Made by a program: the position numbers and the translations under genes. The notes beneath the pieces are model-generated. The model did no database searches and was not told the DNA's origin. It saw nothing but the letters and a program-made list of their open reading frames with translations. A DNA stretch of 64,000 nucleotides from Candidatus Methanoperedens sp. (lineage in GTDB: Archaea; Halobacteriota; Methanosarcinia; Methanosarcinales; Methanoperedenaceae), in NCBI GenBank assembly GCA_012026795.1, contig VEPM01000006.1:124001-188000 (forward strand), in the 5' to 3' direction. Of this stretch, positions 21,908 to 30,846 are shown in pieces; the stretch's first letter is position 1, and each line of letters starts with the position of its first letter.

Positions 21908-23287
21908 TTATGACAGCCCAGAATAAAGCAGACCTGAAACAATCGCTCCCGAAATAGTTGCAACAAGATTTACCCCATTGTTTGTAAGATAACCTTTTTG
22001 CTGAAGCGTTGCGCCAAGCAGGCTATCAATGTTCGTACCTATAAATCCTCCTGCTGTCACGATAATTACAAGGGAAAGGTCTATTGATACCAGAATAAAA
22101 GCCAGAAGGGCGATTGCTAATGATCCTAAAAATGCCGCCGTCTCACCCAGGATCGAGACAGCACCATCAGTTCCAGGCTTTACTTTTTTGAATGTTGTGA
22201 TCATCCTTGGCTCTCCTATATAGGTTTCACCTATCTCACTTGCCAGGGTATCACCGCATGCTGTTGCCACTGACCCCAGATAGGCTGCCAGCAAAACCTG
22301 CCCATGCCAGGGAAAGATCCCATACGCTATGGCAAGCGTAAGACCTGCCAGTGAGTTGGAAAACACATTCTTATATCCTCTGATTCCTCCTTTTCCTTCA
22401 GCAATTCCCCTGGCCAATTTAAAATTATATTTATAGCGGGTAAACACGCTGCCAAGCAGGAAAAAAGCAAGAAGCATAAAAAACCAGTTAACACCGCTTG
22501 ATATTATTATCACTACCCCAAGCAGTGTTGCAGAAAGCATGGCAGACACGTCAGCAACATGCGCCCTGTAGGAAAGATAACCGAGAAAGAACGAAAATAC
22601 AAGCACCTTCATAAGATAAGAAGCATCTACATTATATCCGAACATATAAAAAAGCCACATTACCATGGCTGAGCCAAAAGGGATTATAATATTATCTTCA
22701 TCCTTTGTCATGGATTCAAGAAGGGCGCCGGTAAGAGCTCCGATTACAGAAAGAAATATCAGCATTCCGACCGGAACATATAAAGTGAAACCGGATATCC
22801 ATCCTCCTATAAATAAAGCAAATATACTCCCTGAAATCAGGAAAATGATACTTGATTTTGCAGAATAAATTTTAATCCTGATTTGCTTATTATTCACGAT
22901 TTGTTTTTTTTCTTTGTCAATAACATGTATGATATCCGCAACGCCGTCACCAAATGTTGTAATAACAAAAGCAGCCCCGATAATAAATAATGGGAATTTA
23001 TTTACTCCTGCAGTGTCTACCCCGATCAAAAGGCTGATCGCCAGGAGAATTCCCGTCGTCAGGAATAGCTGTATCATATTGATAAGCTTCCCCGCTTTTA
23101 AGTCTGATTCTCTTGCAAAGAACCGGAAAAATGATGAGTTGGCAGGGACAAATGAAAGAATGATCGCTGCAATAAAAAACAAAAGGGCTAACAGGAAAAT
23201 ATTTTCATTGAAAAACGGAAAAAACAGAACCAGCAATCCAAGAAGAATATAATTGATTTGTTTCTCATATTCCTTTGTTGGCATCAT
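21908..23287 (-). CDS. DUF92/TIGR00297 membrane protein with kinase-like N-terminal half
   Basis: A 459-residue polytopic membrane protein. The C-terminal half (about 225-459) is a DUF92 domain: ACGDTLASEIG, KPGTDGAVSILGETAA and FIGTNIDSLLGA are diagnostic. Plant DUF92 (VTE6) phosphorylates phytyl phosphate. The N-terminal half (about 20-225) resembles CTP-dependent polyprenol kinases (SEC59/VTE5): FGDGVADI near residue 112, then KSSIIFLISGS near 145, in degenerate form. Two linked isoprenoid-alcohol phosphorylation steps are therefore possible; this is inference. It diverges from a cis-prenyltransferase-like gene by 60 bases, which supports a polyprenyl-lipid role. Confidence 0.8.
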   Translation of the reverse strand: MMPTKEYEKQINYILLGLLVLFFPFFNENIFLLALLFFIAAIILSFVPANSSFFRFFARESDLKAGKLINMIQLFLTTGILLAISLLIGVDTAGVNKFPLFIIGAAFVITTFGDGVADIIHVIDKEKKQIVNNKQIRIKIYSAKSSIIFLISGSIFALFIGGWISGFTLYVPVGMLIFLSVIGALTGALLESMTKDEDNIIIPFGSAMVMWLFYMFGYNVDASYLMKVLVFSFFLGYLSYRAHVADVSAMLSATLLGVVIIISSGVNWFFMLLAFFLLGSVFTRYKYNFKLARGIAEGKGGIRGYKNVFSNSLAGLTLAIAYGIFPWHGQVLLAAYLGSVATACGDTLASEIGETYIGEPRMITTFKKVKPGTDGAVSILGETAAFLGSLAIALLAFILVSIDLSLVIIVTAGGFIGTNIDSLLGATLQQKGYLTNNGVNLVATISGAIVSGLLYSGLS

Positions 23288-23347
23288 TTGTCACAGAAAT
23301 GGTATTTACAGGCAAATACTTTATCCTTATACTCCATTAAAGGGGCG

Positions 23348-24001
23348 ATGGGATTTATCTCAAAATTATATGAATTGAATCTTAAGACAAAGATAAAAGA
23401 AATGAATATACCGGATCATATTGTTCTTGCACTGTTTGAAACTGATCTTTTTGCAGATGCAGATTACCTGAAATTAAACTCATTTGCGTGCTGGTGCAAA
23501 GAGACCGGAGTAAAAATCGTTACTGTTTATATTAATATAATCGAAGTGGACACCCACATCAGCAATAAAATCTGCAATAAACTATCAACAGAAATTCCGC
23601 CTGCACTTAAAAATATCACACCAAATATTAATATCATAAAAAGAGGAGACAAAGAAATAAGTAAACACAAAACAAAAGATATGGTTATTGATATATCACT
23701 TGGTTACAGCGGAAAATATGAACTGACAAAGGCATTGAAGGAAGTCATGTTACAGGTAAAAAAGGGGAACTTATCTCCTGATGATATAAATGAAGATGTT
23801 ATCGAATCCCATTTATTGTTTAAATCTGAGCCTGATATTGTTATCCGGGCAGGAGGTAAAAGATTGACTGATTTTCTTATCTGGCAGTCTGTTTATTCTG
23901 AACTTTATTTTACAGACGTCAACTGGCTGGATTTCAGGAAGGTTGACTTCCTGAGAGTGCTGAGGGATTTCCAGAAGCGGAAAAGAAGATTCGGGAAATG
24001 A
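23348..24001 (+). CDS. Non-catalytic cis-prenyltransferase-like subunit (NgBR/Nus1-like)
   Basis: A 217-residue protein of the cis-prenyltransferase fold. Where active enzymes have the catalytic MDGNRR, it reads HIVLALFETDL (residues 24-34), so the Asp and phosphate-binding Arg are gone. It keeps the dimer-interface end RAGGKRLTDFLIWQ and SELYF. It finishes in RRFGK, an RxG motif at the extreme C-terminus as in eukaryotic Nus1/NgBR, where it completes the active site of the partner. AAAGGGG precedes the ATG at 23348; the longer frame upstream would overlap the divergent DUF92 gene. It converges with the catalytic homologue, 12 bases apart. Confidence 0.8.
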   Translation: MGFISKLYELNLKTKIKEMNIPDHIVLALFETDLFADADYLKLNSFACWCKETGVKIVTVYINIIEVDTHISNKICNKLSTEIPPALKNITPNINIIKRGDKEISKHKTKDMVIDISLGYSGKYELTKALKEVMLQVKKGNLSPDDINEDVIESHLLFKSEPDIVIRAGGKRLTDFLIWQSVYSELYFTDVNWLDFRKVDFLRVLRDFQKRKRRFGK

Positions 24002-24013
24002 TCGATTAAAAAA

Positions 24014-24958
24014 TTACCACTTGATCATGCTATTTAATACTACATTACGGAGTGCAAGTTCATGGAGTATCTTTATAACCTCTTCTTTCGGTATCGATAT
24101 GGATCTCCTCGATATCCGAATGACATCTTCTGCTTCCACCATACCGTAATAGCTTAAAAGTTTTACAACACGCATAATTGTGTTCTTCTGTCTTTCATGC
24201 TCCCGTGTCTGGAACGTGCGAATGGCCCGGAGAAGGTCGATCCTTCGAAACTCTGGCCAGAAAGGAGCACAAAAGTATGCTGCGCATTCATTGCCATTTG
24301 CCTGCCATGGAAGGAAATTGGAAATTCTTTCATCCCCGCCTGTCCTGATTATAAGATCCACATACGGAACAGAACCGCTTGAAGGATATAAATGATTGGA
24401 AATCGTTTCTTCATTAATATCTTTTATAGATAGTTCTCCATTTTTGACTTTACAGGCCATTTTTCGTGCCGCATCCACAAGTTCCTGCCGCCCCCCATAA
24501 GCAAGAGCCACATTCAGATATAAGCCATTATAATCCCGTGTTATTTCCTCAGCATGTTTTGCAGATGATTTTAATGCTGGCGGAAGCAGGTCTATATTAC
24601 CCAGGACCCTTACCCTCATCCGGCGTTTATGTGTACGCTCATCCGTGCATATTTTATCGAACTTGATCCCGATAAGTTCAAAAAGCCTGTTTTTCTCAGC
24701 CTCATCCCTGTCGAAATTCTCTGTTGAGAAAGCATAGACAGTAAGCTGCTTAATTCCGAGGTCAAAACTCCAGTCAAGGACTTTTTCCGTAGTATCTGCT
24801 CCCTTGAAATGGCCATAATATTGTGCCAATCCGCGAGTTCTTGCAAACCTCCTGTTGCCGTCCATTATAATAGCAACATGCTCCGGGACAGGCTTGTCCT
24901 TTATTTCCCTTGCAAGTAATACCTCATAACCACTATACAATAATCCCGTTAAATTCAA
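24014..24958 (-). CDS. Catalytic cis-prenyltransferase (polyprenyl diphosphate synthase)
   Basis: A 314-residue enzyme that condenses isopentenyl diphosphate into a long Z-polyprenyl diphosphate, the carrier for protein glycosylation. HVAIIMDGNRRFAR (residues 27-40) has catalytic Asp33; VYAFSTENF, AYGGRQELVDA and RTGGDERISNFLPWQ are intact. After the last core helix it reads RTFQTREHERQK, so the RxG motif that homodimeric enzymes carry here is absent. A C-terminal helical extension of about 60 residues follows. The start is TTG; a TATA-like AATTTAAATAG about 25 bases upstream suggests a leaderless message. With the neighbouring non-catalytic homologue it probably forms a heteromeric enzyme. 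Confidence 0.88.
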   Translation of the reverse strand: MNLTGLLYSGYEVLLAREIKDKPVPEHVAIIMDGNRRFARTRGLAQYYGHFKGADTTEKVLDWSFDLGIKQLTVYAFSTENFDRDEAEKNRLFELIGIKFDKICTDERTHKRRMRVRVLGNIDLLPPALKSSAKHAEEITRDYNGLYLNVALAYGGRQELVDAARKMACKVKNGELSIKDINEETISNHLYPSSGSVPYVDLIIRTGGDERISNFLPWQANGNECAAYFCAPFWPEFRRIDLLRAIRTFQTREHERQKNTIMRVVKLLSYYGMVEAEDVIRISRRSISIPKEEVIKILHELALRNVVLNSMIKW

Positions 24959-24999: not shown

Positions 25000-27900
25000 T
25001 TACCCAAAGTCATGAAGTTTGCGTTGTTCTTCCAATTTTTCTTCCGGTGGGGGAGTGGAACCTATCTGCTTCAAAACTTTAATCGCGACTTTTGTGCCTA
25101 TGATCTTTGCAACTTTACCTGGCTCCTGCACCCGCAGCATCTCCATATCCCTTATCCCTGCATCGAATAATTTGCGTGCGCGTACCCGCCCGATGCCCCG
25201 GATCTGGATAAGATCAAGAAGCTGCAGACTTGCCCCATACTCGACCCGTCTTTCAAGTTCCCTTGCTTTACCTGCTGATGAATGTTTGAGGAACGTTCCA
25301 AGTTCAGCCATTGAATGGACAAGCCAGAGCGTTGTTTCTGAAAGCGCCCTGATATCCCCTTCTCCGATCCCGAATTTTTTCACGATGTCTTCTTCTTTTA
25401 TCTCATTTATCCAGTCAAGCATCACGCATGCTGTTTTTACCTGTGAGAGGAACCATTCATAATCAACTTTGAACTGGGGCGGGATATGTACGAATTCGGT
25501 ATGGTGGTTCATGATAAAATCGCTTAGCCAGTTGTAATCATTTGAGCGCAGATAAAGCTGGCGCATATCGGGTGTCGAGGCAATAAGATGCAGAAGCGTC
25601 ATTTCTGTAAATTGTATGCCTTTTTCGTCTATCTTTTCCATCCCTTCGATCATCAATGAAGCTGAAAGCGGATCGATATACAGGCGTGAGACCATTTCTC
25701 CAAGGCGGGTGGCAAAAAGCCCGTCTTTCTGGACGATCATCTTCTTTTCAACAAGGAAACGTATTATATTGTCAATCACAACTTTGAGACTCCACGGTTC
25801 CTGCTGGGTTGAATAAAAAGTAGCACGCATGAACTCCAGCAATTCAACCATATCTTTTGCAAATCCTGTAACGATCAAAGAAAGGATATGTGTGCGTAAT
25901 GCATTTTCAGAACCGAGCTTCGACCATATATTCTCAGCACCTGCAAGAACATATTGCTTCATGAGTTCACCAAGCTCATCATATGTTTTTGCAACAAGGA
26001 CAGATTCACCATAAGGGTCAAGCCTCGGCCTTCCTGCTCTTCCTGCCATCTGCTTGTATTCAAGAACGGGTATGGGAACCTGGCCAAAATTCATATCATA
26101 ACGCCTGTAACCTTTGATTATCACCCGCCGCGCAGGAAGATTCAGCCCTGCTGCAAGTGTGGGTGTCGCTGCTATCACTTTTATAATTCCATTACGGAAT
26201 CCTGCTTCGACGAGCTTTCGCTGCTCTGAGATAAGACCTGCATGATGGAATGCACTGCCGTTCGCAACACACATCGCAAGTTTTTTTGCAGTATCCACTT
26301 CACTTGTTTCATGAACTTCTGCCGCGAGAACTTTTAGTTTTTCCCTGGTATCATTATCAAGAAGTTCAGATATTGATATACCCACTCGCCCTGCCATACC
26401 TTCAGTGTTCTTCCTGCTGCTTTCAAAAACAAGGCATTGTCCCCCTTCTTTTATAGTATCGGCAGCGAGTGATATGGCGCTGTCCCTGTGGAATTCCCTG
26501 ACCTCGCGCTGGCTCCTGTCCCCGAAATTAATGGCATTCCCGAAAAAGACTCCTTCTTTTAATACGATCGGACGCCATTCACTTAAAACAAGTCCGGCAG
26601 AAAGCCATTTTGCAACTTCCCTGGCATTCCCTATAGTTGCCGAAAGCGCTATTATCTGCGGTTTTTGTTTCATCAATTTCGCGAGTACTATCTCAAGTGT
26701 CGGCCCGCGGTCGGGCGAGTCGATAAGATGCACCTCATCTGCGATCACTACTGTAATTTCACTGATCCAGTGAGACCTGTTACGAAGCAGTGAATCCACT
26801 TTTTCGGATGTAGCAACAATAATATCAAAATTACCCAGCCACTCATCATTGGAATCAAAATCACCTGTGGCAATGCCAGTTGAAACTCCGCGCCCGTCGC
26901 TTTTCTTTATGCTCTCGAAACTGCGGAAACGCTCATACTTTTCACTTGCAAGAGCGCGAAGAGGCACTATATAGAGGGCTTTTCCTTTTTTAGTTTCATT
27001 CAATACCGATTGCAGCATGACAAATTCCGCAAGCAGGGTTTTACCTGAAGCTGTGGGGATAGCGGCTACGATGTTTTTGCCTTCGAGGAGACCTGCATCA
27101 ATCGCTGCTGACTGTGGCGGGTAGAGGGATTGGATCCCTGAATCCATGTAAAATTGTTTTATTTGGGCTGGCAGGTTGAGATCGGTAATTTTTATTCTTT
27201 TTTCATTTTCAACAGGTGCAGGTTTATTAATTTTATTGGCCGGAGTGAATCCGGAATCGGTTATTATTGGTTTTTCGATTTGTTTTTCTTTTATGATTTT
27301 CCCTTTTTTCATTTGTGCGCAATGACCGCAATTTTCCTGTTCTGATTTCAGAAGCAATCGATTACACTTTTTCCCGGAAGGCAGAATATGTGAACATCGA
27401 GGATAATCATGTTTTAAATATATTGGGCATTTTTCAAAATCCAATATTTTATCCTTAATTTCTTTTCTTAAGAAGCAAAGCAGGCGCTTTTCTTCATCAT
27501 CAATACAAAATTGCCCATCGCCATTCTGTTCTATGCAGATAGGTATGAAAGGATTATAAATTTCGTTTTTTTTAATGATGAATTTAATTTCATTTTCAAG
27601 ATGCAATTTTGATTCAATCCAATCTGGCGGTTCAATTTTAAGTATTATTAATTCAATACCCGCTTCTGTCAAATCTTTTATTTTAAAATCATCAGGTGGA
27701 TTTGAGACAACAATTTCTATTGCCCGTATAACTTTACCCTCTTTGTTCAATAAGCTAATATCAGGTCTTCTTCCATTTTCTAAACCTTTTTCACGTTTGA
27801 TATTGTTTATATTTTTTAGAAAGTTAATTCGTTGAATTCTTGGTTCCTTTTCTTGTGAATTAGAATGGGAATCAATATTTACGCCGATATAGAATGATTC

Positions 27901-28170
27901 ATTTTTTTCCAAATGATCGTTTAAAAGGCGATAAACTTCATCTTTAGCATTTGAATGAGCTATTGTTTCTGGAGAGTGACAATGGTTTTTTAGAGCAAAA
28001 TGATGCTTTCTTATTTCTCCTTTTTTTGCTATAACTTCTTTTTGTTCATTATTTTCTTCATAGCAAAGTCTGCAAATGAATGGTTCCAGTTCTATTTTTT
28101 CTTCTTTTGTGAAATCATTGACATTTCTCAATATTAGATTTTTATCATAAGCCCATTCTAATTGAACCAT
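25000..28170 (-). CDS. Hel308-type DNA helicase fused to a CoiA-like PD-(D/E)XK nuclease domain
   Basis: 1056 residues, about 320 more than normal Hel308. The N-terminal part carries C33-x2-C36, HHFAL at 56-60, His72 and Lys76 in a helix, then GRRPDISLLNKEGKVIRAIEIVV (residues 133-155, key residues Asp137, Glu152), a CoiA-like PD-(D/E)XK nuclease core. A zinc-ribbon-like set follows (Cys259, Cys269, Cys281, Cys284), then a Lys-rich linker. From about residue 327 it is a complete Hel308: Walker A IPTASGKT (371-378), DEVH (478-481), QMAGRAGRP, and a C-terminal helix-hairpin-helix (RGIGRVRARKLFDAG). No internal Met could start a separate Hel308. Hel308 unwinds stalled forks and displaces DNA strands. 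It lies 39 bases downstream of a membrane gene and SatD. Confidence 0.9.
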   Translation of the reverse strand: MVQLEWAYDKNLILRNVNDFTKEEKIELEPFICRLCYEENNEQKEVIAKKGEIRKHHFALKNHCHSPETIAHSNAKDEVYRLLNDHLEKNESFYIGVNIDSHSNSQEKEPRIQRINFLKNINNIKREKGLENGRRPDISLLNKEGKVIRAIEIVVSNPPDDFKIKDLTEAGIELIILKIEPPDWIESKLHLENEIKFIIKKNEIYNPFIPICIEQNGDGQFCIDDEEKRLLCFLRKEIKDKILDFEKCPIYLKHDYPRCSHILPSGKKCNRLLLKSEQENCGHCAQMKKGKIIKEKQIEKPIITDSGFTPANKINKPAPVENEKRIKITDLNLPAQIKQFYMDSGIQSLYPPQSAAIDAGLLEGKNIVAAIPTASGKTLLAEFVMLQSVLNETKKGKALYIVPLRALASEKYERFRSFESIKKSDGRGVSTGIATGDFDSNDEWLGNFDIIVATSEKVDSLLRNRSHWISEITVVIADEVHLIDSPDRGPTLEIVLAKLMKQKPQIIALSATIGNAREVAKWLSAGLVLSEWRPIVLKEGVFFGNAINFGDRSQREVREFHRDSAISLAADTIKEGGQCLVFESSRKNTEGMAGRVGISISELLDNDTREKLKVLAAEVHETSEVDTAKKLAMCVANGSAFHHAGLISEQRKLVEAGFRNGIIKVIAATPTLAAGLNLPARRVIIKGYRRYDMNFGQVPIPVLEYKQMAGRAGRPRLDPYGESVLVAKTYDELGELMKQYVLAGAENIWSKLGSENALRTHILSLIVTGFAKDMVELLEFMRATFYSTQQEPWSLKVVIDNIIRFLVEKKMIVQKDGLFATRLGEMVSRLYIDPLSASLMIEGMEKIDEKGIQFTEMTLLHLIASTPDMRQLYLRSNDYNWLSDFIMNHHTEFVHIPPQFKVDYEWFLSQVKTACVMLDWINEIKEEDIVKKFGIGEGDIRALSETTLWLVHSMAELGTFLKHSSAGKARELERRVEYGASLQLLDLIQIRGIGRVRARKLFDAGIRDMEMLRVQEPGKVAKIIGTKVAIKVLKQIGSTPPPEEKLEEQRKLHDFG

Positions 28171-28209
28171 TTTTTTACAATATGGGTTTGGATTAAAAAT
28201 AGCTTGTTA

Positions 28210-28578
28210 TTAATTCCCTATTAAGATTTTCAGTATCAATCCGATCATTATTGAATAGGTCACGTTAATCATGGTTCCCGCAAGAAAAAATAAAGTGTTT
28301 TTACTCATATCTTCCCGCCTGACAATGGCTTTAGCGGCAAATACCAGAGCAAGGGCAGTATAAGCCTCAAGGATCATAAAAGTGAGGATAAGCAGGTTTT
28401 CGCATTTTCCAATAACAAATCCTGTGTCGCGAATTTCCTTACTTATCTTGTTGGTGACAGGCTCAGATGAAATTTTCGATATTATATAATTCACCAAAAT
28501 TCCGCTTGTACCCAGTAATATGATATAGCTGCCCAACAGGATAAATCCATCTATATAGTTCAATTCCCTGAAAATCAT
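28210..28578 (-). CDS. Small membrane protein resembling the DUF3307 C-terminal region
   Basis: A 122-residue protein with three or four hydrophobic helices (about 9-32, 52-78, 90-120). The stretch GKCENLLILTFMILEAYTAL followed by FAAKAIVRREDM and a helix FFLAGTMINVTYS resembles the last membrane part of DUF3307 proteins, which are the usual genomic partners of SatD. It begins 2 bases after the SatD stop, so the two are surely cotranscribed, and its stop is 39 bases before the nuclease-helicase gene. Its biochemical role is unknown. Confidence 0.7.
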   Translation of the reverse strand: MIFRELNYIDGFILLGSYIILLGTSGILVNYIISKISSEPVTNKISKEIRDTGFVIGKCENLLILTFMILEAYTALALVFAAKAIVRREDMSKNTLFFLAGTMINVTYSIMIGLILKILIGN

Positions 28579-28580
28579 AT

Positions 28581-29228
28581 TTATCTTCCGATAGTTCTAT
28601 CCATACTTTCAAGCACTTTATTTAATTCTTCTTCTATATACCGTATCTCTTTCCACATAGAACGTGTGAGGGCTTTCGATACCGCCTGCTGTGTTATCCC
28701 AAGCTCTTTTGCCACCTCGTATTGATTATTTGTTTCCTTATATTTTCTTACTATCAAGTGCTGATTTGCTGACCAGTTTTTCTTTAATAAAATAATTGAA
28801 TTGATCTGTCCACTTATCAGGTTATCTGTTATATCATTGCCAGTTGACATTGCGAAGGTAAGCTTTGATTCTTTCAGGTTTTTAATAAGATCTGATACTT
28901 TATGAAAAGCAGGTCCATCCATTCTTGACGCATCATGTGTCTCTATAGCAGTATCTATAGAATCAAATGCAAACGCAAACCTCATCGAATACGGATATAG
29001 TTGCTCCAATATCGAAGTGATTATTTTATAAATTTTCGATATATTTAGCAGGACTCCTTCTATTTCGTCTATGCCTTTTAATATCTTAAATTCAGCATAG
29101 AGGCTGGCTGAGTAGTCCATGTTTATACTGTCACATATTTTCTCCAGCCGTTCCTGGAATAACTCCTTATTTTTTATACGGCGGGAAGAGACCACATCGC
29201 CTGATATAACATAAAGTTTCTTAGGCAT
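28581..29228 (-). CDS. SatD-family protein with C-terminal HTH
   Basis: A 215-residue protein beginning MPKKLYVISGDVVSSRRI, the signature start of the SatD family (PF16264). A middle alpha/beta domain holds MRFAFAFDSIDTAIETHDAS and MDGPAFHKV. The C-terminus has a helix-turn-helix NQYEVAKELGITQQAVSKAL (about residues 168-187). The ATG at 29228 is 28 bases from the centre of a TATA box (TTTTTATATATAAAA), which suggests a leaderless message; the longer open frame upstream would cover the dyad at 29300. SatD members are probable regulators or nucleotide sensors of uncertain function. First gene of an apparent operon with the membrane protein and nuclease-helicase. Confidence 0.85.
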   Translation of the reverse strand: MPKKLYVISGDVVSSRRIKNKELFQERLEKICDSINMDYSASLYAEFKILKGIDEIEGVLLNISKIYKIITSILEQLYPYSMRFAFAFDSIDTAIETHDASRMDGPAFHKVSDLIKNLKESKLTFAMSTGNDITDNLISGQINSIILLKKNWSANQHLIVRKYKETNNQYEVAKELGITQQAVSKALTRSMWKEIRYIEEELNKVLESMDRTIGR

Positions 29229-29247
29229 AAGTAAAATACTATATGTT

Positions 29248-29263
29248 TTTTTTATATATAAAA
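29248..29263 (-). promoter_or_regulatory. TATA box of the SatD operon
   Basis: On the minus strand the sequence reads TTTTTATATATAAAA, a strong archaeal TATA box. The expected start of transcription is near 29229, at the SatD ATG. Confidence 0.6.
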
Positions 29264-29274
29264 ACAATTGATTT

Positions 29275-29325
29275 GGTTGTATTAATAAATAACAACCATA
29301 ATAGTTGTTATTTACAAATACAACC
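29275..29325. promoter_or_regulatory. 51-bp nested dyad between SatD and pheS
   Basis: Outer arms GGTTGTAT (29275-29282) and ATACAACC (29318-29325), and inner arms TAAATAACAAC (29286-29296) and GTTGTTATTTA (29304-29314), share one centre at 29300. By hand count 22 of 25 base pairs match. It contains four GTTGT half sites in alternating orientation. It lies just upstream of the SatD TATA box and midway to pheS. Probably an operator, possibly bound by SatD itself. Confidence 0.7.
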
Positions 29326-29379
29326 CAAAAACCTATCAAAAATGATTAAATATCCTGCTGTCCATTCTGATGCCATATC

Positions 29380-30846
29380 ATGACCCTCACAATCAATCTC
29401 ACAAATAATGAAAAGCGTGTTTTACTGTCACTATCCAAAAAAGACAGATTTTCACCTGAAGACCTTGCTGCCGCCTCGGGATTAAGCATTGAAGCTTCCA
29501 TGCAATCAGCATTCATGCTTGCTGAAAAAAGTCTTTGCGAGATAAAAGAAACGGTCACGACAACATACAACCTTACAAAAGAAGGGGAACAGTATGCACA
29601 AATTTCACTTCCTGAGCGCCAGGTCATGAATTCACTAAAGGAGCCGCTTTCGCTTTCCGAATTAAAAAAGAAATTCCCGCCGCAGATGGTCGGGATCGCC
29701 CTTGGCTGGCTACGGAAGAAAAACTGGGTAAAAATTGAAGGCGACAGGATCATTCCTGTAGCGAAAGCCGAAGTGGGCGAAGATGAAAATATCCTCACAA
29801 AGCTAAAAAAAGGCCCGCTTTCAGACATCGGGGAGGCGGTGAAGGACCTGATCAAACGTAATCTTGTTGAAAAAACAGAGAAAAAAAGCAGGATCATAAT
29901 AATCACTCCAGCCGGAAAAGCTCTTGTAGCAAAAGGTCTGGCCATCGAAGAGGAAATTGTACAGCTTACACCCACAATAATCGCAGGCGGTTCATGGAAG
30001 AATGCCAGAATCCGTCCTTATGATATTCATACCCCGATAAAACCGATATACGGCGCAAAAATCCATCCATACCAGCGCCTTATAAACGAGATGCGCCAGA
30101 TTTTCCTTGAGATGGGATTTACAGAAATAAAAGGGGACATTGTCCAGAGCTCATTCTGGAATTTCGATGCACTCTTCCAGCCCCAAGAGCATCCTGCGCG
30201 GGAGATGCAGGATACATTCCATCTTGCTACCGAATGCGACCTTCCCGAAGAATATATTGAACCAGTTAAGGAAATGCATGAAAAAGGCGGCAGCATATCA
30301 CGCGGATGGGGGGGCAAATGGAGCGAAGATGTTGCAAGAAAACAGGTGCTTCGCACTCACACAACAGCAGTCACTATAAAATATCTTGCAGACCATCCTG
30401 ACTCTGCTGTAAAAGCTTTCTGTATAGACAGGGCATACAGGCGGGAGGCCATTGACCCTACGCATACGCCTGAATTTGAGCAGCTTGAGGGTGTTGTCAT
30501 GGATAAAGGAGTGAGCTTCAAGAACCTCCTTGGCTGCCTGACAGAGTTCTATCACAGGATGGGCTTTGACGAAGTCCGTTTCAGGCCCGGATATTTCCCA
30601 TACACAGAACCAAGCGTTGAGCCTGAAGTATATATCGAAAGCAGGGGAAAGTGGGTGGAACTCGGAGGCGCAGGAGTATTCAGGAAAGAGGTCACGCTGC
30701 CGCTTGGTATCAAACAACCCGTGCTTGCATGGGGCCTTGGTGTGAGTCGCGTTGCGATGCTGCGCCTGGGATTGAAGGATCTAAGGGAGTTGTACCAGAG
30801 CGATATCGACTGGCTGCGGAAGAGTACGGTTACTTCATACTCTTAA
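29380..30846 (+). CDS. pheS: Phenylalanyl-tRNA synthetase alpha chain
   Basis: A 488-residue archaeal/eukaryotic-type PheS. The N-terminal winged-helix repeats (about 1-170) begin [19 protein letters not shown]. The class II core follows: motif 1 region [19 protein letters not shown], motif 2 [22 protein letters not shown] near residue 350, and motif 3 [19 protein letters not shown] near 455. It charges tRNA-Phe as an alpha2-beta2 complex; pheT is not in the window. It is divergent from the SatD operon and likely shares the 151-base control region. Confidence 0.96.

Follow-up and report, generated by a model that had tools for sequence, protein, structure and literature searches.

Why does a Hel308 helicase gene in Candidatus Methanoperedens sp., a methane-oxidizing archaeon, open with an additional N-terminal module, and does the resulting protein work with the SatD-family regulator and small membrane protein encoded beside it? 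The locus lies in a 64,000-nucleotide stretch of contig VEPM01000006.1 (positions 124,001 to 188,000; GenBank assembly GCA_012026795.1), referred to here as the window, in a genome (G000; 3.6 Mb, 68 contigs) that is 99.98% complete. An earlier reading of the window from its letters alone (the sequence-only reading) described three minus-strand genes in one direction with gaps of 2 and 39 bases, which the gene coordinates bear out (25000 to 28170, 28210 to 28578, and 28581 to 29339, separated by 39 and 2 bases, respectively). It proposed that they form one system composed of SatD, a membrane protein, and a CoiA-like nuclease/Hel308 fusion. Half of this proposal stood: the fusion was supported by profile-profile comparison and conserved residues, whereas the partnership with SatD and the membrane protein was contradicted by synteny. 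The fusion and its counterparts in related archaea may represent a family of one-piece nuclease-helicases not described before; none of the papers searched names Hel308 together with CoiA.

The fusion gene (25000 to 28170, minus strand) is an uninterrupted frame of 1056 codons, and the prediction that it encodes a full Hel308 preceded by about 320 extra residues was confirmed. Residues 327 to 1048 (25027 to 27192, minus strand) matched the Hel308-type archaeal equivalog NF002654 at 1019 bits (cutoff, 887); with a separate model, NF040935, the fusion protein scored 580 bits, below the cutoff of 1200. The five-domain Hel308 layout is present (PF00270, PF00271, PF20470, PF21280, and PF14520), the helicase motifs are intact (TASGKT at residue 373, DEVH at 478, SATIGN at 510, and QMAGRAGR at 707), and the Hel308 part matched PDB entry 2p6r at an E value of 1.6e-164. 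No other Hel308 match at E ≤ 1e-100 was found in the G000 genome. The linker that precedes the helicase (residues 293 to 326; 27193 to 27294, minus strand) is mostly native Hel308 N-terminal tail and aligns with the tail in the sister genome G021. Contrary to the statement that the Hel308 boundary has no start codon nearby, an in-frame ATG occurs at codon 287 (27310 to 27312, minus strand), about 38 codons ahead of the helicase and within sequence alignable to the native tail of Hel308 in the sisters. This ATG could serve as an internal start for a Hel308 of about 770 amino acids, and it is possible that one gene yields two products, the second shorter and native-like. Even with this ATG the fusion is real: the module takes the native Hel308 start codon as its own and stays in frame throughout.

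The N-terminal module (residues ~1 to 292; 27295 to 28170, minus strand; GC content, 0.30) is well supported as a CoiA-type module by profile-profile comparison, conserved residues, the CoiA_N domains of its relatives, a predicted core structure, and recurrence. In comparison by hhalign with classic archaeal CoiA-type proteins, which carry a D...E-x-Q site, it matched with a probability of 97% (E = 9e-11), and the alignment paired the CxxC, HFAH, H...K, D, and E elements. Published work places CoiA in the PD-(D/E)XK superfamily, with a PD-EXQ site (PMC1189080). A CoiA_N-like zinc segment (residues 21 to 62, with C33, C36, and H57-F58; 27985 to 28110, minus strand) gave only a subthreshold match to PF25164 in the window protein (E = 0.6); CoiA_N exceeded its cutoff in several stand-alone relatives and in the fusions of G140 (locus L095) and G096 (locus L115), each of which joins it to Hel308 domains in a single frame. 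The predicted PD-(D/E)XK core follows (residues 70 to 178, with H72, K76, P136-D137, and E152-I-V; 27637 to 27963, minus strand). In an alignment of 17 sequences from bacteria and archaea, C33, C36, H57, E68, H72, K76, P136, D137, I138, L140, and E152 were invariant. The PD (Asp137), E-x-V (Glu152), His72/Lys76, and Cys pairs noted by the sequence-only reading are all present and invariant or nearly so. AlphaFold placed a confident core at approximately residues 70 to 178 of the window protein, in the order helix-strands-helix-strand, and modeled one relative with a pLDDT of 86.5 and a pTM of 0.81. A second Cys-rich segment (residues 206 to 292; 27295 to 27555, minus strand) has a Cys pattern common to the window module and those of the G010 and G090 fusions. 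The module is 46% identical to the N-module of another Methanoperedens fusion. Stand-alone relatives occur in Methanimicrococcus, Methyloglobulus, Flavobacterium, Pseudanabaena, and others, and a plasmid-borne one is annotated "competence protein CoiA family protein." In PADLOC, the N-module matched SspE and DruD at E values of 0.002 to 0.003, which we took to be chance hits.

Comparison with sister genomes located the junctions. Unfused Hel308 proteins, 87 to 94% identical, are encoded in G018, G003, G004, and G020 at the same place, beside UppS and PheS. In alignments with G021, G018, and G003, the match extends through window position 28166 (ATGGT) and resumes from 27314; an inserted segment of ~851 bp (27315 to 28165, minus strand) takes the place of ~23 bp that directly follow the native start codon of Hel308. 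The insert is AT rich (GC content, 0.30 versus 0.46; third-position GC content, 0.21 versus 0.43), and no repeats or transposon ends were seen at the window junctions. The same pattern was found in G090, where the module ends at the native Hel308 ATG, a codon still present in the unfused sister G087. Misassembly is unlikely: seven further genomes, of which some are single contigs, have the same architecture, and the junctions align with the sisters, in agreement with the earlier view that the fusion is genuine. The best explanation is that an AT-rich module was acquired horizontally and grafted recently behind the start codon of the genome's single housekeeping Hel308 gene. Among the sister loci, Hel308 of G021 (L039, 5839 to 8511) reads as two overlapping frames and the membrane protein there is missing an internal stretch, through either decay or sequencing errors; upstream of Hel308 in G018 (L033, 5700 to 7200) lie response regulator/PAS-like and zinc-ribbon genes in the place that SatD occupies in the window.

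Across genomes of one class, we found eight CoiA-Hel308 fusion genes in as many genomes (G000, G010, G090, G096, G140, G134, G135, and G119); those of G135 and G119 are second, divergent Hel308 copies. When mapped on a tree built from 52 Hel308 proteins, fusion requires seven changes of state, each forced by well-supported branches. The simplest reading is seven independent gains, although some may be losses or transfers. Module families differ between fusion events, the G140 and G134 modules being of the classic ELQHS type, and in the six fusions on nonisland genes the N-module has a GC content of 0.30 to 0.38 versus 0.43 to 0.56 for its own Hel308. The CoiA-type domains found in our survey sample of 238 genomes stood alone or were joined to Hel308, with no other partner. 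That the same two domain types have been fused repeatedly and independently is strong evidence that they work together. Two other classes of the phylum were sampled, and no CoiA-Hel308 fusion occurred among the matches listed and checked; long Hel308 frames in haloarchaea and other classes were not CoiA fusions where sampled, most being GC-rich frames that start just before Hel308. In the G010 fusion (L032, 7480 to 8140), the nuclease module and the helicase are separated by an additional ~220 residues of TPR-like tandem repeats. Searches of mobile elements returned two cyanobacterial stand-alone relatives on plasmids, no match to the window module among viral contigs, and no match to one stand-alone relative among phage records. 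With the family alignment, one viral contig was recovered (L193; IMGVR_UViG_3300048836_001233), whose CoiA-type protein shares 55% identity with that of Methyloglobulus.

Some members of the family keep company with defense genes. In G135 and G119, the second, fused Hel308 copy adjoins McrBC-type genes (PF10117, E = 4e-88 and 2e-78) together with BrxB or BrxC; a stand-alone relative in G120 adjoins the BREX genes PglZ and BrxL, and one in Flavobacterium (L111) adjoins Lamassu LmuA/LmuB. In addition, a CoiA domain protein was recovered in an experimental antiphage screen (PMC9519451). In the G135/G119 pair, the module is under purifying selection and evolves faster than the helicase (dN/dS, 0.31 and 0.10, respectively). 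G119 also encodes a 1,088-amino-acid Hel308/HamB-like helicase (L108, 484 to 3747; HamB models, E = 3e-51) whose long C-terminal part matches an "Effector, PN-superfamily" model (E = 2e-18).

These observations led us to favor, at a probability of roughly 0.45, a one-piece, Hachiman-like nuclease-helicase whose selected role is most likely defense against viruses and mobile DNA, with the normal work of Hel308 retained. Directly supported are the fusion, its junctions, its repeated origin, partner specificity, conserved catalytic-type residues, purifying selection in one pair, and the defense-island company of some relatives; from these we infer nuclease activity, its control, and the defensive role. 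Forks and D-loops are substrates of Hel308, which functions in repair and which most of the archaea tested can do without (PMC7776575). The N-module would use the native Hel308 start codon and upstream region. Loading at forks, at D-loops, and where single strands are exposed, the Hel308 part would translocate 3′ to 5′ and locate abnormal or foreign replicating DNA for cleavage, while the nuclease tethered at its N terminus would cut the DNA under unwinding. Control may be analogous to that of Hachiman, with the nuclease held against the N-terminal part of the helicase until abnormal DNA frees it, and the helicase part would keep the ordinary tasks of Hel308.

Hachiman pairs the nuclease HamA with HamB, a Hel308-like helicase of the Ski2 type; HamA docks at the N-terminal region of HamB, and abnormal DNA activates it (PMC12278908). 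The fusion resembles this arrangement in that a predicted PD-(D/E)XK-type nuclease is coupled N-terminally to such a helicase, and its helicase part matches HamB models. It differs in being a single polypeptide with a CoiA-type nuclease rather than DUF1837 and in having as its helicase a true housekeeping Hel308, often at the native locus. HamA (DUF1837) was not matched in the N-module, and because DUF1837 is lacking, the fusion is not a Hachiman member. With the CoiA family (COG4469; PF25164 and PF06054) it shares a putative zinc N-domain and a predicted PD-(D/E)XK-type core but has E-x-V instead of E-x-Q and is joined to a helicase. Compared with other archaeal Hel308 proteins, the helicase is complete in all domains and sits in the native gene neighborhood but bears an extra N-module of ~290 residues. 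Hef, an archaeal helicase-nuclease, likewise has a helicase and a nuclease in one chain and acts at forks (PMC7776575), although its nuclease is XPF type and C-terminal and its helicase belongs to another family.

Several results weigh against a defensive nuclease-helicase. CoiA_nuc (PF06054) had no match anywhere in the G000 genome, and the site reads PD...E-x-V, with V154 where the catalytic lysine is usual; on sequence grounds, the invariant K76 may supply the missing lysine of the putative nuclease site. The profile or structure search that the sequence-only reading had suggested for the N-terminal part gave a divided answer: the hhalign match to CoiA was positive, but fold searches with two models returned no hit below an E value of 0.05, the best weak hits being mostly PD-(D/E)XK proteins (YaeQ, SfsA, BstEII, DrdV, NucS, PA endonuclease, and FAN1). 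Only some stand-alone relatives lie near defense genes, the others having no evident defense neighbors, and none of the native-locus fusions, that of the window included, has defense genes adjoining Hel308. Finally, the G000 and G010 modules are sisters in the module tree, and thus one acquisition followed by several losses, or a transfer, is possible for that pair.

The main rival, somewhat unlikely in our view, is a Hef-like repair enzyme in which Hel308 would gain from the nuclease the ability to cut stalled forks, D-loops, or cross-linked DNA, the defense company being incidental. It draws on the position of the fusion as the genome's only Hel308, at the native locus, and on the ties of Hel308 to fork and cross-link repair and its interaction with the Hjc resolvase (PMC7776575). 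However, the grafts are patchy, recent, and AT rich, and close sisters are unfused, a pattern that fits the turnover of defense genes better than core repair, and two fused copies are extra genes in defense islands. It is improbable that the module is catalytically inactive, binding DNA or partners, or is a neutral insertion tolerated while Hel308 is made mainly from the codon-287 ATG. The E-x-V site without the usual lysine, the internal ATG, and the faster evolution of the module would be consistent with such a state, whereas the invariance of D137, E152, H72, and K76 across bacteria and archaea, the module dN/dS of 0.31, and repeated fusion to the same partner argue against it.

Very unlikely is a selfish nuclease gene that inserts at the Hel308 start and is kept since its loss would damage a useful gene: the position of the insert in G000, at the start codon or right behind it, and that in G090, at the native start, would fit such an element, but no repeats or transposon ends were seen at the window junctions, module families vary from event to event, and stand-alone relatives reside in defense islands. 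The three-gene system of SatD, membrane protein, and fusion has least in its favor and is hardly tenable. The tight gene spacing in G000 speaks for it. SatD (28581 to 29227, minus strand) was correctly identified (PF16264, E = 1.8e-21), with a start more likely at ATG 29227, to which we moved it, than at TTG 29339. The small membrane protein (28210 to 28578, minus strand) is the partner of SatD rather than of the fusion; it had no significant Pfam match, and no match to a DUF3307 model, the membrane protein type with which SatD often pairs, was detected. SatD is present in 30 of the 238 genomes surveyed, and across the class it is followed by the membrane protein at numerous loci that are unrelated to one another. 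In G021 the order is SatD, membrane protein, and Hel308, with the module absent, and the expected recurrence of all three genes together was not seen: the other fusions examined have no adjacent SatD. Because the pair occurs at unrelated loci and, in G021, before an unfused Hel308, we conclude that SatD and the membrane protein are a separate, widespread two-gene module that chances to lie upstream here.

UppS and PheS are ancestral neighbors of Hel308. Downstream, a UppS-like gene (24014 to 24958, minus strand) adjoins Hel308 in the compared Methanoperedens loci, and upstream, the divergent PheS gene (29380 to 30846, plus strand) occupies the same place in the closest sisters. Two UppS-like prenyltransferase genes lie tail to tail beside Hel308 at 23258 to 24958, a pair kept in many of the genus loci compared.

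The fusion links the poorly understood CoiA family to Hel308. If its role is indeed defensive, it would suggest a route by which housekeeping repair enzymes turn into immune effectors, and fused genomes and their unfused sisters offer natural paired strains for testing. We tentatively propose that Methanosarcinales archaea may repeatedly convert Hel308, a repair helicase of their own, into an immune effector by fusing a mobile CoiA-type nuclease to its N terminus, which would be a single-chain counterpart of Hachiman, undescribed so far.

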